NCBI GenBank assembly: GCA_937870825.1
Contig: CALMZO010000214.1
Span: 1-64,000, forward strand
Reading direction: 5' to 3'
DNA from: an uncultured Chloroflexota bacterium
GTDB lineage: Bacteria > Chloroflexota > Anaerolineae > UBA4142 > SHND01
DNA: 64,000 nt
Shown: piece after piece, positions 39,305-64,000 of the stretch
Position numbering within the stretch: the first letter of the stretch is position 1
How the letters are laid out: each line of letters begins with the position of its first letter
Notes under the pieces: model-generated
Database searches by the model: none
What the model was told of the DNA's origin: nothing
Seen by the model: only the letters and a program-made list of their open reading frames with translations
Made by a program: the position numbers and the translations under genes

Positions 39305-41458
39305 TCACATCAATTCGACAATCAACAACGTCATATCGTCAAAGCGTTCCGCGTCCCCTTGATGCTGCGCAACCGCGTCGAACAACGCGTCGCCCATCTG
39401 TGCAAGCGGCAGTGAAAAATTTTCCAATGCCGCGTGTTCCAATTCTTCGCGTCCGAAAGGTTCTTCGCGCACATTGACCGCATCCGTCATGCCGTCGGTA
39501 TACAACACGAGGCGGTCCCCGCGCTGCAATGGCATTCGTTCCTCACTGAGAAACACTTCGCGTTCGTCCAGAAAACCCAACATCGTACCGACACCGCGCA
39601 AAATAATCACCTGCTTTTCGCGCACCAGCAATGGATAATCATGTCCCGCGCGCACAAAATTCAAATAACGCTGCGGCAGATCCAGCACGCCGTAAAACAA
39701 CGTGACGAATTGCGTCGGCTCTGCCAAATCGAGCAAGAGCCGATGCACGCGCCGCAATACCTTTTCCGGTGACAATTCGCGCTGCGCCTCCGCACGCACC
39801 AAACTCCGCGTCAATGCCATAAACAACGCGGCGGGCATGCCCTTGTCCGAAACGTCTGCAATCACGACGCCGATGCGAGTTTCGTCCAACAAAAACACAT
39901 CATAAAAGTCGCCGCCCACTTGGCGCGCCGGCTCGTTGCGCGCATAAAACTGCGCCCCCGCGACGAGCGGAAATTGATGCGGCAGCATGTTTTGCTGTAC
40001 GGTGCGCGCCAATTCCAATTCGCGTTCGAGCCGTTCCTTTTTTGCAATTTCTATCTGCGCGGCTTCCAACGCGGAAATTTTTTCGCGCAAATTGGCAATC
40101 AAGTCCGCGCGCTGAAGTGCCGCCGCGCCCGCGTTCGCCAACGCGTGCAGTAACGCGGCTTCGCGCGCCTCGAACGTTTTGCGCACCGTGCTGTGAAAAA
40201 TCATCGCGCCCACGACTTGGCGCTGCGCCACGAGCGGCACGCGTAGCCCCGCGCGCACATGCGCGCCTTCCGCGTCCGCCGTGCGTTTTGGAATCCCCGG
40301 CGGATACCCGCTCAAGGGCAAATGTCCTTCGCTCACTCCGTTCTCGCCGAACAAATCTTGAAACGGCACGCGCGTATGCAAATAGCGCGTATCCCAGCCG
40401 TTCAGTGCGACAATTTCTGCCGATTGGTCATGATGCAAAAGATACAACACGGCGCGGTCCGCGCCGCACAAATCGTGCGCGCGGCGGCAAATGTACGCCG
40501 CGAGTTCCTCCATCGAATCCAATTCGAGCAGCTTGTAGCCGACTTGCTGCAAGGCAAAGGACGCGAGATATTGCTGCTCGTGCGTCCGCGCGGCAAGCTG
40601 CAATTCCGTCACCTGGTTTTTCAGCGACTGCGTCGCGCGCAGGGTATGGCGTTCGCTGGCGGTGAGCAGATGAAAGAGCCGATGGATTTGTGCCGCGTCC
40701 AAATTTTCTACGTCGTCGCGCGTCAAAAAACCCTGCCGCGCCAATTCCCGCGCGTACGTTTGAAACGAGAGAACGCTTGGTGATTCGAGAGGGTTTTGTT
40801 TTGTGTCGGCGCGCCACACATCGAAAATTGCAATTTCACCGCGCCGCCCCGTGCTGCCGCATTGGTCACAACCCGTCGCGCGGAAAAAATCACCGTCGCG
40901 TTTTTTGCAATCATCGCACAACGTCTGCAAACGCTGCACCGCAATCACCGCGCGCAGTGCCTTTAACAACGCGTCATCGTCAATCGCTTGGCGCAATTCT
41001 CGAACCACCCACGCACCACACAGCGGCGTATCCATTTGCGTCACGATGCGGCGCCCGCGCTGCGCGGCTTGCAGCGCGGGTTCAAAACAGTCGCGCGGCA
41101 ATGTCTCGGAAAAGACCAACGGATACCCGCGCTCCATCGCGCGTCCCAACGTCATTGCAAAATCTTGGTCGCCAAGCGGATACAAAATTTTGGCGCGTTC
41201 GCGCGAGCGCGTGGTCAAGCGCAACTGCGCGTCTTTGTGTTCGCTCACAATCGCCGCGCGGGTGTGCGGATGCGCGGCGAAAATGTTCCGCGCCAAAATT
41301 CCAAACACGGCGCTGCGTCCGCTCGCCTGCGCGTCATCTTCCAAATGCGGACGCGCGTCGAGACCCGCGACGATGACGAGTCCCGCGTCCTCGCGCGCAA
41401 TGTCGTCAAACAACGCATCGAGTTGGGGCAGATGATGAAAGGCGTTGAGGTCGAGCAT
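39305..41458 (-). CDS. GspE/PilB-like domain fused to GAF and SpoIIE-type PP2C phosphatase
   Basis: A 717-residue signalling protein starting at 41458 (MLDLNAFHHLPQLDALFDDI); an earlier start would translate heptad repeats. The first 250 residues resemble a degenerate type II secretion/pilus ATPase C-terminal lobe: a helix-strand pattern (ERGYPLVFSETLPRDCFEPA), then a four-Cys zinc site LCDDC...GCDQCGSTGRRGEIAIFDVW, but no Walker A. A GAF domain follows (about 320-470), then a coiled coil and a PP2C/SpoIIE domain with QVGGDFYDVF, IADVSDKGMPAALF and DDMTLLIV. Such phosphatases usually act on anti-anti-sigma proteins. The N-terminal fusion is unusual; its role is unknown. Confidence 0.8.
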   Translation of the reverse strand: MLDLNAFHHLPQLDALFDDIAREDAGLVIVAGLDARPHLEDDAQASGRSAVFGILARNIFAAHPHTRAAIVSEHKDAQLRLTTRSRERAKILYPLGDQDFAMTLGRAMERGYPLVFSETLPRDCFEPALQAAQRGRRIVTQMDTPLCGAWVVRELRQAIDDDALLKALRAVIAVQRLQTLCDDCKKRDGDFFRATGCDQCGSTGRRGEIAIFDVWRADTKQNPLESPSVLSFQTYARELARQGFLTRDDVENLDAAQIHRLFHLLTASERHTLRATQSLKNQVTELQLAARTHEQQYLASFALQQVGYKLLELDSMEELAAYICRRAHDLCGADRAVLYLLHHDQSAEIVALNGWDTRYLHTRVPFQDLFGENGVSEGHLPLSGYPPGIPKRTADAEGAHVRAGLRVPLVAQRQVVGAMIFHSTVRKTFEAREAALLHALANAGAAALQRADLIANLREKISALEAAQIEIAKKERLERELELARTVQQNMLPHQFPLVAGAQFYARNEPARQVGGDFYDVFLLDETRIGVVIADVSDKGMPAALFMALTRSLVRAEAQRELSPEKVLRRVHRLLLDLAEPTQFVTLFYGVLDLPQRYLNFVRAGHDYPLLVREKQVIILRGVGTMLGFLDEREVFLSEERMPLQRGDRLVLYTDGMTDAVNVREEPFGREELEHAALENFSLPLAQMGDALFDAVAQHQGDAERFDDMTLLIVELM

Positions 41459-41510
41459 GGAAATTGGAAATTGGAAATTGGAAATTGGATGTTGGATGTT
41501 GGAGTCCAAT
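41459..41510. repeat. Heptanucleotide repeat spacer
   Basis: Four GGAAATT units and two GGATGTT units lie upstream of the PP2C gene and just downstream of the E1 gene. Same class as the heptads in purL and purQ. Confidence 0.85.
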
Positions 41511-58754: not shown

Positions 58755-60314
58755 ATGGATTCAGTAAACGGTGTTCCACCCAGCGGGATCGTCACATTTC
58801 TCTTTACCGATATTGAAGGCAGCACCGCGCTGTGGGAAAAAATGCCCGAAGCCATGAAGCGCGCACTCGCCCAGCACGACCAAATTTTGCATCTCGCGAT
58901 TGCCAAGCATAACGGTTACGCGTTCAAACAAATCGGCGATGCCTTTCAAGCCGCGTTCGTCGCACCGTCCGACGCGTTAAATACCGCGATTGATGCCCAA
59001 CGCGCCTTGCGCGACGCGACCTGGGGCGAAACGGGCGCGCTGCGCGTCCGCATGGGCATTCACACCGGACCCGAAGAGTGGCTCGGCACCGATTACGCGG
59101 TGAGTCACACGCTGAACCGCGTGGCGCGCATCATGTCGGCGGGACACGGCGGCGAAATTTTGGTGTCAAGCGAGACGGTTGAAAATGTGAACGGCACGAT
59201 GCCGCAGGACGCGAATTTGCGCGACTTGGGCAAACATCGGCTCAAAGGGCTGAAAATTCCCGAACATATTTTTCAACTCGTCGTTCCTGATTTGCCAGCC
59301 GAATTTCCGCCGCTGAATGTCTTGGATTCGTACAACGCGCATTTTGAAACCGTCGCGCGCAACCTTGCTGAAAATCGCGTCGTGCCGTTTTTAGGCGGCA
59401 CTGTGAATTTGGTCGGACGCCCAACCGACAGACCGTGGCGCTTTGGCGAATCGGATTTTTTGCCCGTCGGTGTGGAACTTGCCGAACATCTCGCGCGCCT
59501 CTTTGATTATCCTGCGAATGAACCGCGTGACCTCGTGCGCGTTTCGCAATTCGCTGCCGTGAAAGCGGGCATCGGTCCCCTGTACGACGAACTGCGCAAA
59601 GTGTTCAAAGCCGAATATCCGCCGACGCCGCTGCACATGTTTTTTGCAATGCTGCCGCGTCTTTTGCGCGAGCGCGGTTTTCCGCCCGAACTGATGGTTG
59701 TAACCACGAATTACGATGACGCCTTGGAACGCGCGTTTCGCGCAATGAACGAACCGTTTGATTTGGTCACGTACATTGCCGAAGGCGATGCGCGCGGAAA
59801 ATTTATGCACACGTCCCCTGACGGCAAAGCGCGCCCGATTGACAAACCAAACAAGTATCTTGGACTGAATCCCGAAGAACGCACGACCATTCTAAAAATT
59901 CACGGCGTCGTGGACCGCAACAATCGCGCGCGCGACAGTTACGTCATCACCGAAGACCATTACATTGATTATCTCGCGCACAAAGACATTGCCCAACAAT
60001 TGCCCGCGCAACTTTTGGAGCGCATGAGCTGGAGTCACTTTTTATTTCTGGGCTACAGCTTGCGCGACTGGAATTTGCGCGTGATTTTGCATCGCATCTG
60101 GGGCGAACAAAAATTTAAATACAAAGCGTGGGCGGTGTCCGATACGAATGTGTTGGGCGAAAAGCCGCAGCCGCTCGAACAAGAATTTTGGCGACTGCGC
60201 GATGTGGACATTATCAAAATGCCGCTCGACGATTACGTCGAATCCTTGCAAGAACGTGTCGAGCATTTAACGCAGGGCATTGCCGTGAGCTCACCTGAAC
60301 GGGGGGGGGAATAG
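58755..60314 (+). CDS. Class III nucleotide cyclase fused to SIR2-like domain
   Basis: A 519-residue two-domain protein. Residues 10-175 are a class III cyclase: TFLFTDIEGSTALW with metal Asp19, FKQIGDAFQAAF with Asp62, and LNRVARIMSAGHGGEILVSS with transition-state Asn121 and Arg125. It should make cAMP or cGMP; specificity is not clear. Residues about 205-480 are SIR2-like: VVPFLGG, VVTTNYDDALERAF (Asn319), ILKIHGVVD (His383), FLFLGYSLRDWNLRVIL. The catalytic Asn and His of NAD-hydrolysing SIR2-like proteins are retained. The last codons lie in a run of nine G; the stop is one base before the STAND gene. The cyclase-SIR2 fusion is unusual and suggests NAD- or infection-linked signalling. 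Confidence 0.87.
   Translation: MDSVNGVPPSGIVTFLFTDIEGSTALWEKMPEAMKRALAQHDQILHLAIAKHNGYAFKQIGDAFQAAFVAPSDALNTAIDAQRALRDATWGETGALRVRMGIHTGPEEWLGTDYAVSHTLNRVARIMSAGHGGEILVSSETVENVNGTMPQDANLRDLGKHRLKGLKIPEHIFQLVVPDLPAEFPPLNVLDSYNAHFETVARNLAENRVVPFLGGTVNLVGRPTDRPWRFGESDFLPVGVELAEHLARLFDYPANEPRDLVRVSQFAAVKAGIGPLYDELRKVFKAEYPPTPLHMFFAMLPRLLRERGFPPELMVVTTNYDDALERAFRAMNEPFDLVTYIAEGDARGKFMHTSPDGKARPIDKPNKYLGLNPEERTTILKIHGVVDRNNRARDSYVITEDHYIDYLAHKDIAQQLPAQLLERMSWSHFLFLGYSLRDWNLRVILHRIWGEQKFKYKAWAVSDTNVLGEKPQPLEQEFWRLRDVDIIKMPLDDYVESLQERVEHLTQGIAVSSPERGGE
60301..60309 (+). repeat. G9 tract at the cyclase-STAND junction
   Basis: Nine consecutive G encode Arg-Gly-Gly-Glu just before the TAG at 60312. 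The next gene begins at 60316 in the adjacent frame. With eight G, the reading frame passes the stop and runs into the ATG of the STAND gene in frame, giving a single polypeptide of about 1,280 residues. Confidence 0.85.
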
Positions 60315-60315
60315 A

Positions 60316-62607
60316 ATGAGTTCTCCTCCCAACGGCGCAGGAAACATGGACACGCGCAAAATTCCGCCCGCGCCGTACAAAGGTCTCGTCCCGTACACCG
60401 ACGACGATGCCGCGCTCTTTTTTGGACGCGATGCGGAACGCTCCATCATCGTCGCGAATCTGCGCTCATCGCGTTTTACGTTGTTGTACGGACCAAGCGG
60501 CGTCGGCAAAAGTTCCGTCGTCGGCGCGGGGGTCGTGCATTTTCTTCGCCAACGCGCAAAACAAAACATCGCCAAACGCGGCACGCCGGAATTCGCGGTG
60601 ATTTATTTCAATCAGTGGCGCGATGACCCGGTGGTTGGACTCGTACGCACGGTGCGCGAAGAAGTTGAAAAACTTGTAGGCAAGACGTTTGACGACCCGC
60701 AGACAACGCGTTTCAAAACCCTCGACGAACAACTAAAAATGTGGGCAGAGCGCGTCGGCGGCGACTTGCTCATCCTCCTCGACCAATTCGAAGATTATTT
60801 TTTGTATCATGCGAACGAAGACGGACCCGGCACATTCGTCGAAGAATTTCCGCGCGTCGTAACGGACAAGGATGCGCGCGTCAATTTTGTCGTTTCCATT
60901 CGCGAAGACGCGGTTGCCAAGCTCGACCGCTTTGAAGGGCGCATTCCCACACTCTTTGACAATTACATTCGCGTGGACCATCTCGACCGCAGTGCCGCGT
61001 GCGACGCGATTATCAAACCCATCGAACAGTACAACAAAGCGATAGGCGACCCCGCGCTGAAAGTGAGCATCGAACCCGCGTTGGTGGATGCGGTCCTCGA
61101 CCAGGTCAAAACCGGACGCGTCTCGCTGACCGAAACGGGACTCGGCGCGATCAAAAACGAACACAGTGAGAATGGACACGAATCGAATGTCGAACGCATC
61201 GAAACGCCGTTTTTGCAATTGGTGATGACGCGGTTGTGGGATGAAGAATTACGCGGTGGTTCGCATGTGTTGCGTTCGGAAACGCTGAATCGGTTGGGCG
61301 GCGCGGAACGCATTGTGCGTACCCATTTGGACAAAACGCTCGGCGGTTTGCCTGCCGTGGAACGGCAAGCCGCCGCAGGAATGTTTCACTATCTCGTCAC
61401 GCCGTCGGGCACAAAAATCGCGCACACCGCGCGCGACCTCGCAGAATATACGCGCACGAATGAAAAGCAGCTCGTCCCCGTTTTGGAAAAAATGTCCGCG
61501 TCCGGCATTCGCATTTTGCGTCCCGTCGCCCCCCCCCCCGACCAACTGGACGCGCCGACGCGGTACGAAATTTTCCATGATGTGCTTGCGCCCGCGATGC
61601 TCGATTGGCGGCGCCGCTATTTGCAGCAGCGGCGCACGCGGTTAATTGGGTTTGGAGTGGGCGCGGCGGCGTTCGCGGTCTTGTTGATTATCGGCGCGTT
61701 ATGGTTCAACTTGCAGCGCAGTCAACAGCAATTGACGCAAAAAGCGCAAGAGGCAGAAAATTTATCGCAAGCCATTTTGTCCGCGCCCCAGCCGACAGGT
61801 TCCGTAACGCTGCCGCCAACGCTCGTCGCGATTCGTGAAACGGCGGCGGCAGTAGGAACCAGTGCGGCGGCGGTCACTTGTCAGGGCGCGCCGGACATTG
61901 CCTTCAGCGTTTCCAAAAATAATATCGCGCCGCGTGACCCGGTCATTTTGCAGTGGGGCAGAACGCAGCGCGTAACGGGCGTGACGATTGAACCCGGTTT
62001 GGGCAAGGTGAATGTGGAAGGTTCGCATGCTGTTCAGCCGTTGCAGACGACGACGTACACCTTGACGGCAGAGGGATGTGGCGGCAAGATTACGCGTCAA
62101 GTGACCATTAACGTCATTCCGGCAACGGGAACTTTGACTGCGATTCCAGCGACGGCGACGAACGTGCCTCCTACTGCGACATTGCCGCCTCCCACCGCGA
62201 CGCGTGTGCCGTTCACACCAACGACGGCGGCATCTCCGACGTTGAACGTGCCGCCGGGAGTGTATGTGACACGACTGCGCGTCGAACCTGCTGCTCCGCG
62301 TTCAGGTGACGAAATCACGTTCTCTGCGACAATTCTGAATACGATTGGTTCAACGCAAGAGTATGATTATTGTGTCGAGCTCTTCAAGCCGGAGAATGTG
62401 GGACGTTCCGTCGGCATCACAACGTGCCGCCAGCAAAAAATCGAACCGGGCGAAAGTGTAATCACGGCGACGGGGTGGAATGTGCGCGAGGGCGCATGTA
62501 CGCAGTATCTCGCGCGTCCGATTTGGCAAGACGGCGCAAAAGCGCGCACGGCGTTTTTGTCAACGGATGGGAATATCCCATGGCTGCCGTTTGATGTGTG
62601 TCCGTAA
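60316..62607 (+). CDS. Membrane-anchored nSTAND-type NTPase with extracellular domains
   Basis: A 763-residue protein. PYKGLVPYTDDDAALFFGRD opens the nSTAND1-type NTPase; Walker A is GPSGVGKSS (Lys65) and Walker B LLILLDQFED (Asp156). A helical winged region follows (to about 435; YEIFHDVLAPAMLDWRRRYL is the usual closing motif). One membrane helix spans about 443-466. Outside lie an Ig-like domain (about 500-605), a Thr/Pro linker and a CARDB-like domain (about 650-763). Eleven C (61529-61539) encode APPP before the membrane helix, a slippage-prone tract. It lies one base behind the cyclase-SIR2 gene and probably controls it (inference). Confidence 0.87.
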   Translation: MSSPPNGAGNMDTRKIPPAPYKGLVPYTDDDAALFFGRDAERSIIVANLRSSRFTLLYGPSGVGKSSVVGAGVVHFLRQRAKQNIAKRGTPEFAVIYFNQWRDDPVVGLVRTVREEVEKLVGKTFDDPQTTRFKTLDEQLKMWAERVGGDLLILLDQFEDYFLYHANEDGPGTFVEEFPRVVTDKDARVNFVVSIREDAVAKLDRFEGRIPTLFDNYIRVDHLDRSAACDAIIKPIEQYNKAIGDPALKVSIEPALVDAVLDQVKTGRVSLTETGLGAIKNEHSENGHESNVERIETPFLQLVMTRLWDEELRGGSHVLRSETLNRLGGAERIVRTHLDKTLGGLPAVERQAAAGMFHYLVTPSGTKIAHTARDLAEYTRTNEKQLVPVLEKMSASGIRILRPVAPPPDQLDAPTRYEIFHDVLAPAMLDWRRRYLQQRRTRLIGFGVGAAAFAVLLIIGALWFNLQRSQQQLTQKAQEAENLSQAILSAPQPTGSVTLPPTLVAIRETAAAVGTSAAAVTCQGAPDIAFSVSKNNIAPRDPVILQWGRTQRVTGVTIEPGLGKVNVEGSHAVQPLQTTTYTLTAEGCGGKITRQVTINVIPATGTLTAIPATATNVPPTATLPPPTATRVPFTPTTAASPTLNVPPGVYVTRLRVEPAAPRSGDEITFSATILNTIGSTQEYDYCVELFKPENVGRSVGITTCRQQKIEPGESVITATGWNVREGACTQYLARPIWQDGAKARTAFLSTDGNIPWLPFDVCP

Positions 62608-62645
62608 AAAAAGTAGAGACGTTACAGCGTAACGTCTCTACTCTT
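62606..62645. terminator. Bidirectional intrinsic terminator between convergent signalling genes
   Basis: GTAGAGACGTTAC (62613-62625) pairs perfectly with GTAACGTCTCTAC (62629-62641). Seven A precede and TCTTTT follows, so it works on both strands. Confidence 0.9.
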
Positions 62646-63908
62646 TTATGCCGCATGGACCGCCACCACCGTTATATCATCATGCACCGGCGCATCGCCG
62701 CGAAAGGCGTTGATGGAATTTAGAAAATCGTCGCACAACGTTTGCGCGTCCACTTTGACATCTTGTTGTAACAACTGCTGAATGCGTTCGATGCCGAATT
62801 GTTCGCGTTCGGCGTTTAACGCTTCCGTCACGCCGTCGGTAATCAATAACATGGTCGCGCGATGCGGCAGCGTAAGCGTTCCCTCATCCAACAACACAAA
62901 ATCAAAAATGCCGAGCGGCGCGCCCTGTCCTTGGGGGGGGGTGAAAATTTCGCCGTGCGGTTCGCGCACCAACGGCAGTTCATGTCCCGCGCGCGCGTAT
63001 TGAAATTCGCGCGTGGTGCGATTCAAGATGCCGTACAACACGGTGACGAACAAGCCCGACGCGTTCATTTCCAAAAGATATTGGTTGACGCGTTCGAGCG
63101 TTTCGCGCGGCGACCGATTTTGGCGCGCTTCCGAACGAATGAGCGCGTGCGTTTGCGCCATAAAAATCGCGGCAGGCACACCTTTGTCGCTCACATCGCC
63201 AATCACAATCGCGAGCGCGTCTTCGCCGAGCGGAATAAAATCGTACAAATCGCCGCCGACCGCGCGCGCGGGCACAATTTTTGCGCCGAATGAAAATCCT
63301 TTGAGATGCGGCAGGGTGCGCGGCAAAAGACTCATTTGAATTTCCGCCGCGAGCTGCAATTCGCGTTCCAGTTTTTCTTTTTCGATAATCTGCGCTTGCG
63401 CCGCTTTGAGTTCCGCGTATGCTTCCGCAAGTTCCGCGTTGGCGATTTCCAACGCGCGATTTTTTTCAATCAAACTTGCCATCGCGTTGTTGTGCGCGTC
63501 GGTGAGCCGATTCGACAGGACACGCACCATTTCGTACGCGAGGTCGGGCTGGCGCGTGAGCAGCGCGTCAAAATCCGCGCGCGTCATTTCCCACAGCGTC
63601 GCTTCGCCGCGCGCACGCACGCTCGCGGTGCGTTTGCCGTCGCGATTAAACAAACTCATCTCGCCGACGAAATCGCCCGAATGGCGTTCGTTGACGATGC
63701 GTTCGTCAGGTGTGCCGATGCCTTTGACGACTTCAATTTCGCCTTGGCGCAAAATATAAAAATGTTGTCCCGCGTCGCCTTCGTAAAACAACACGGTGTC
63801 GGGCGGAACTTGACGGGTGGTCAACGTTTCCGCGAGGTGACGAATTTCACTTTCGGGCAGCGTGGAAAACAATGGCACGCGCGAGAGCAGCAATTCCGTT
63901 TCGGTCAC
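62646..63908 (-). CDS. Cyclic-nucleotide-binding domain fused to SpoIIE-type PP2C phosphatase
   Basis: A 420-residue protein with GTG start (AGAGGA eight bases upstream). Residues about 10-130 are a cNMP-binding domain: LFSTLPESEIRHLAETL, LFYEGDAGQHFYILRQGEIE, and the phosphate cassette region SGDFVGEMSLFNRDGKRTAS. A coiled coil (about 140-190) leads to a PP2C/SpoIIE phosphatase with AVGGDLYDFIPLG, IGDVSDKGVPAAIF and HDDITVVAVH. Binding of cAMP or cGMP should control the phosphatase, usually aimed at anti-anti-sigma proteins. Its position next to a nucleotide cyclase suggests it reads that signal. A run of nine G/C (62933-62941) encodes TPPQ. Confidence 0.9.
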   Translation of the reverse strand: MTETELLLSRVPLFSTLPESEIRHLAETLTTRQVPPDTVLFYEGDAGQHFYILRQGEIEVVKGIGTPDERIVNERHSGDFVGEMSLFNRDGKRTASVRARGEATLWEMTRADFDALLTRQPDLAYEMVRVLSNRLTDAHNNAMASLIEKNRALEIANAELAEAYAELKAAQAQIIEKEKLERELQLAAEIQMSLLPRTLPHLKGFSFGAKIVPARAVGGDLYDFIPLGEDALAIVIGDVSDKGVPAAIFMAQTHALIRSEARQNRSPRETLERVNQYLLEMNASGLFVTVLYGILNRTTREFQYARAGHELPLVREPHGEIFTPPQGQGAPLGIFDFVLLDEGTLTLPHRATMLLITDGVTEALNAEREQFGIERIQQLLQQDVKVDAQTLCDDFLNSINAFRGDAPVHDDITVVAVHAA

Positions 63909-63921
63909 GTTTTGTTTCCTC

Positions 63922-63951
63922 TTGACAGTCTATACACAACGATAATAGAAT
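63922..63951 (+). promoter_or_regulatory. Possible promoter for a gene beyond the window
   Basis: TTGACA (63922-63927), 18 bases and TAGAAT (63946-63951) point to the right. No gene is visible before the window ends at 64000. The divergent PP2C gene starts at 63908. Confidence 0.4.
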
Positions 63952-64000
63952 CAGCGCACCGTTTGGGAATCCCCGCCAAAATCCGTTTTCGCAGGGCTTC

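Follow-up and report, generated by a model that had tools for sequence, protein, structure and literature searches.

The window is the whole stretch of DNA that was analysed (64,000 nucleotides), and three adjoining genes lie near its end. Gene A (58755..60314, + strand) encodes a 519 aa fusion of a class III nucleotidyl cyclase and a SIR2_2 domain. Gene B (60316..62607, + strand) encodes a 763 aa protein with an nSTAND1 NTPase domain, a transmembrane (TM) helix, and an extracellular sensor. Gene C (62646..63908, - strand) encodes a 420 aa fusion of a cNMP-binding domain (CNBD) and a SpoIIE/RsbU-type PP2C phosphatase. All three genes were assigned from open reading frame (ORF) calls and Pfam matches, and genes A and C also from their orthologues, which for gene C are found in 6/6 members of the genus. 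Genes A and B are separated by one base, and the start of gene B overlaps the stop of gene A in the orthologues. Genes B and C are convergent, and a consensus scan placed a 14-bp stem-loop terminator between them (62612..62642).

The cyclase domain of gene A (aa 9-178; 58779..59288, + strand) and its SIR2_2 domain (aa 197-503; 59343..60263, + strand) were delimited from Pfam (Guanylate_cyc, 1.7e-15; SIR2_2, 5.2e-22), the residue table, and the AF2 models. The orthologues of gene A in five other species of the genus are 80-88% identical to it. The cyclase retains D19, K58, D62, D113, N121, and R125, and these residues are invariant across the six orthologues. It thus possesses the two metal-binding Asp, the Lys/Asp base pair, and the Asn/Arg transition-state residues of a class III adenylyl cyclase, where K58 and D113 are adenine-type residues. 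The AF2 model of this domain resembles the Ma1120 adenylyl cyclase in the fold search (Z 20.0). The SIR2 domain retains N319 and H383, also invariant across the six orthologues, which are the catalytic Asn and His of a SIR2-type NADase in a SIR2 fold. The best structural match of its AF2 model is the SIR2 domain of DSR2 (Z 17.8), and its sequence relatives include KomC and the SIR2 domain of ThsA.

The nSTAND1 NTPase domain of gene B (aa 20-425; 60373..61590, + strand) was identified by Pfam (2.1e-41) and the genome search, and its P-loop carries the Walker Lys65. A single TM helix is predicted at about aa 443-462 (61642..61701, + strand) from hydropathy, which is 2.4-2.7 in six of six orthologues, and its cytoplasmic flank is basic. 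The extracellular part (61849..62604, + strand) is predicted by AF2 (pLDDT 78) and the fold search to form two Ig-like beta-sandwiches with a Thr/Pro-rich linker. This part matched no Pfam family. A specific identity for its domains was rejected, as the fold search gave generic beta-sandwich matches only (best Z 10.7).

The CNBD of gene C (63552..63815, - strand) was identified from Pfam (cNMP_binding, 3.6e-21) and alignments, and its phosphate-binding cassette is intact (GEMSL...KRTA). Judged by eye, a His occupies the base-contacting position that is equivalent to Ser128 of CRP, which leaves cAMP uncertain as the ligand. The SpoIIE domain (62655..63224, - strand; Pfam 1.3e-46) carries the GGDLYD, GDVSDKG, and DDITVV motifs. 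The sequence-only reading had described a cyclase and a SIR2-like domain with intact catalytic residues in one protein, a STAND NTPase with one membrane helix and extracellular domains one base later, and a convergent fusion of a cNMP-binding domain and a PP2C phosphatase. The ORF calls, Pfam matches, residue table, and AF2 models agree with this description, and the phosphatase can now be placed in the SpoIIE/RsbU branch of PP2C.

That reading overlooked the neighbourhood of gene C, as the window ends at position 64000. A divergent promoter region (63909..64000) precedes a partner-switching cassette of the RsbW/RsbV type that lies outside the window (64112-68590 of the same contig) and stands head-to-head with gene C. 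The cassette consists of genes for a STAS protein encoded at 64112-64504, a HATPase_c_2-STAS protein, a second STAS protein, an unknown protein of 318 aa, a HATPase_c_2 protein, and a patatin phospholipase. The 318 aa protein (contig C214 66195-67151; L055 8195-9151) has no Pfam match and is present in G000, the genome that carries the locus, and in G004. No sigma factor gene was noticed beside the cassette among the genes read up to contig position 78000. Gene C faces the STAS/HATPase cassette and is therefore most likely a partner-switching phosphatase with a cyclic-nucleotide input. Two other genes of the contig were observed. One encodes a 790 aa Bmp/PnrA-like substrate-binding protein (contig C214 73459-75831; L055 15459-17831) with apparently two near-identical tandem domain copies, which either duplicated recently or reflect an artefact of the assembly. 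The other (window 39305-41509) encodes another SpoIIE-type phosphatase of 734 aa, with the domain at 500-731.

Genes A-B-C are kept in the same order in all six genus genomes examined, so the adjacency, whose rarity the sequence-only reading had named as evidence against its proposal, is in fact the rule in the genus. The SpoIIE phosphatase is accompanied by the STAS and HATPase_c_2 partners of an RsbU-type system in 5/6 of these genomes, and the exception is G005, where the cassette is absent from the A-B-C locus. The genes upstream of gene A vary between several genus genomes while A-B-C persists, which indicates that the block is retained beyond its immediate background. In G001, the ORFs upstream of the gene A orthologue (contig C70; L060 14689-18961) have starts that resemble phage-tail sheath and tube proteins by eye, and possibly belong to an extracellular contractile injection system. 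The mean omega is 0.12 for gene A and 0.15 for gene C; within gene B it is 0.14 for the NTPase part and 0.25 for the extracellular part. The three genes are thus under strong purifying selection, and the sensor part of gene B evolves faster.

These data bear on the reading of A-B-C as an anti-phage or abortive-infection system, where the STAND protein would sense infection, the SIR2 domain would deplete NAD, and the cyclase signal would recruit effectors such as the patatin phospholipase, as in Avs5, Thoeris or Pycsar. The resemblance of the SIR2 fold to DSR2 and its relatedness to KomC and ThsA agree with this reading, as does a weak match of the cassette patatin to phospholipase effectors in PADLOC. 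Both nSTAND1 and cyclases are also found in predicted conflict systems, according to two reports (PMC8195603, PMC7159879). However, PADLOC gave no full-length match and no complete system, either in the three genes or in their flanks. Neither a defence island nor a mobile context is evident, as the flanking DNA carries no further defence gene. The locus is carried by every genus member examined under the low omega given above, and the predicted sensor sits outside the membrane. In the search of phage and plasmid records, no record covered 80% of the protein, and no phage match spans it. A defence role, which the sequence-only reading had entertained together with a defence-island context, is therefore possible but unsupported, and we consider it unlikely.

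The genes A and B belong to a wider arrangement, the SIR2_2-nSTAND1 two-gene module, that is defined here by a SIR2_2 gene and an nSTAND1 NTPase gene lying next to it or close by. About 25 further loci of this module were identified, and the pair occurs in five phyla (Chloroflexota, Myxococcota, Pseudomonadota, Actinomycetota, and Verrucomicrobiota). The sensors of these loci vary and include WD40, FGE-type (L064), and TM plus Ig. The N-terminal slot of the SIR2 protein is also variable. It is occupied by nothing, a CHAT protease, EAD7, SARP-BTAD, or a cyclase. The catalytic Asn/His of SIR2 has been lost in 4/10 proteins with a filled slot versus 0/18 with an empty slot (Fisher p 0.010). This loss suggests that SIR2 may partly be a module for coupling to STAND that can become dispensable as an enzyme. 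Nor is the SIR2 domain simply the NAD-depleting effector, as its catalytic residues are often missing from relatives that carry an additional output domain. At one locus (L117 658-2280, G1066), the protein encoded next to nSTAND1 joins a SARP-type transcription factor (Trans_reg_C-BTAD) to a SIR2_2 domain that is catalytically degenerate, and this protein is possibly a STAND-controlled transcription factor.

The full cyclase-SIR2 fusion was identified at three kinds of locus. Besides the genus locus, there is a second one in G000 and G005, and the third lies in G298, a genome from another family of the same phylum. The second-locus protein shares 53-54% identity with gene A, and the G298 protein shares 47%. 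Outside the genus, the full-length fusion turned up in G298 alone, with none among the 396 genomes sampled from the phylum of L053 and the 284 from the phylum of L045. The cyclase domains of the three loci form three separate clades. A common origin of the fusions was ruled out by AU tests, where every union of these clades was rejected (p-AU about 4e-4 or lower). Judged from these phylogenies, the cyclase entered the N-terminal slot of SIR2 independently at least three times. G000 also encodes a cyclase fused directly to nSTAND1, and such a fusion is a plausible source of the captured cyclase.

Each of the three loci has a cNMP-binding gene nearby. In G298, the cyclase-SIR2 gene is followed by an overlapping nSTAND1 gene with TM segments, and a gene for a stand-alone cNMP-binding protein lies convergent directly after it; the flanks are unrelated and there is no STAS cassette. 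Beside the second locus lie genes for an MFS-cNMP fusion and for another cNMP-binding protein, which is of the CRP type in G000, together with STAS and GAF genes. A 23S_rRNA_IVP four-helix protein with weak similarity to bAvd is encoded there between cyclase-SIR2 and nSTAND1-WD40 (L063 8885-9274). A cNMP-binding gene was thus present at 3/3 cyclase-SIR2 loci versus 0/~25 cyclase-less SIR2-nSTAND1 loci within the DNA examined (p≈3e-4), in a test that was framed post hoc and with control flanks of varying length, some of them short. PF00027 genes are few in G000 (19 domains in about 15 genes, in a genome of 7.23 Mb), and none of them lies on a contig that carries one of its other class III cyclase matches. 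A simple Poisson estimate, also post hoc, puts the chance of a cNMP-binding gene near both cyclase-SIR2 loci of G000 at about 8e-4.

Two further readings can be weighed against these loci. The first is that two separate systems stand side by side, where A-B is a SIR2-nSTAND1 system and gene C is the phosphatase of the cassette that responds to the global cAMP pool. The head-to-head position of gene C and the cassette agrees with it, as does the convergence of A-B and C across a terminator, and their separate transcripts count against a joint circuit. The cNMP-SpoIIE homologues outside the genus also occur alone, without cyclase-SIR2, so the STAS cassette could be the only system to which gene C belongs. 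However, G298 has its cNMP-binding gene in the equivalent convergent position although no STAS cassette is present there, G005 retains A-B-C without the cassette, and the cNMP neighbours track the cyclase fusion across loci. We regard this reading as rather improbable. The second is that the gene A cyclase is a nucleotide-binding regulatory domain and not an enzyme, with SIR2 as the sole effector. The cyclase of the second locus lacks K58, D113, and N121 and may be dead despite the nearby cNMP readers, while the SIR2 domain there is intact, and inactive cyclases have been reported in conflict systems (PMC7159879). In gene A, by contrast, none of the six canonical residues varies among the six orthologues, and G298 exhibits the opposite pattern, where SIR2 is dead and the cyclase carries K58R and is otherwise mostly intact. 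We regard a purely regulatory cyclase as highly improbable.

The combination differs from the known systems that it resembles. The conflict systems of multicellular bacteria comprise nSTAND1/EAD systems with exchangeable sensors and effectors, including cNMP cyclases, CHAT/caspase-type peptidases, and EADs (Kaur et al., 2020, PMC7159879; Kaur et al., 2021, PMC8195603; Dore et al., 2024, PMC10907252). The loci in this work share the STAND NTPase with exchangeable parts, and the FGE-type sensor also occurs at L064. However, the available parts of these three papers describe neither a SIR2_2-nSTAND1 pair in which SIR2 bears an output slot at its N-terminus nor a cyclase-SIR2 protein accompanied by a reader of the cNMP-binding or PP2C kind. 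Pycsar likewise places a class III cyclase (PycC) beside a cNMP-binding effector, but the reader here bears a PP2C phosphatase and not a TIR or TM effector, and the cyclase is fused to SIR2, adjoins a STAND receptor, and has adenine-type K58/D113, whereas PycC is a pyrimidine cyclase. Membership in Pycsar was rejected, as the PycC matches are weak and partial (E 0.05-0.07) and the PADLOC match to PycTIR is limited to the CNBD stretch. Avs5 (SIR2-STAND) and DSR2 also couple a SIR2 NADase-type domain to a STAND or sensor part, but here there are two genes, an nSTAND1 domain, a membrane-spanning extracellular sensor, and an extra cyclase output. Membership in Avs5 was rejected, as SIR2 and STAND are in two ORFs and no Avs model matched in PADLOC. 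The RsbU/RsbW/RsbV systems likewise combine a PP2C phosphatase of the SpoIIE type with HATPase kinases and STAS proteins, but the phosphatase here has a cNMP-binding domain as its input and lies opposite a STAND-cyclase unit. No description of the A-B-C combination was found in a literature search that left most subscription papers outside.

We lean slightly towards a circuit where a surface-sensing NLR-like switch makes a cyclic nucleotide that is read by the neighbouring regulator, gating cAMP-type signalling to partner-switching. The nSTAND1 protein would be a membrane-anchored NLR-like receptor with an extracellular Ig-type sensor, and a putative ligand bound outside would induce its ATP-dependent clustering. 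The SIR2 domain of gene A would couple to STAND, presumably by physical contact, and the N-terminal class III cyclase would be the main output. Clustering would bring the cyclase domains together and raise a cyclic mononucleotide, most likely cAMP. This nucleotide would bind the CNBD of the gene C phosphatase, which would then act on the adjoining RsbV/RsbW-type cassette by dephosphorylating its STAS proteins, and so alter the partner-switching output. The intact SIR2 domain of gene A may add an NAD-cleaving branch. The sequence-only reading had proposed that the STAND protein controls cyclase-SIR2 and that the neighbour reads the cNMP, and this is partly supported by the conservation in the genus, the recurrence in G298, and the co-occurrence of cyclases with cNMP-binding neighbours. 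Related gene sets were assembled at least three separate times with a reader alongside, which suggests a real, undescribed signalling circuit.

A broader proposal is more tentative, and we put it at somewhat below an even chance. SIR2_2-nSTAND1 may be a general NLR-like receptor platform, where SIR2 is mainly a coupler and its N-terminus is an output slot for a protease, an adaptor, a transcription factor, or a cyclase. A cyclase plugged into this slot would recruit an adjacent cNMP reader and so yield receptor-gated cAMP signalling to a partner-switching pathway.

The circuit, if true, would join NLR-like STAND receptors, SIR2 NADase-type domains, and cAMP-to-RsbU partner switching, which are usually separate fields. 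The prediction is directly testable, as the same circuit appears to have been assembled repeatedly and independently. If the circuit holds, a SIR2 domain that pairs with nSTAND1 should be able to act as an adaptor and not solely as a killer, and the STAND receptors of Chloroflexota should be able to drive ordinary second-messenger signalling.
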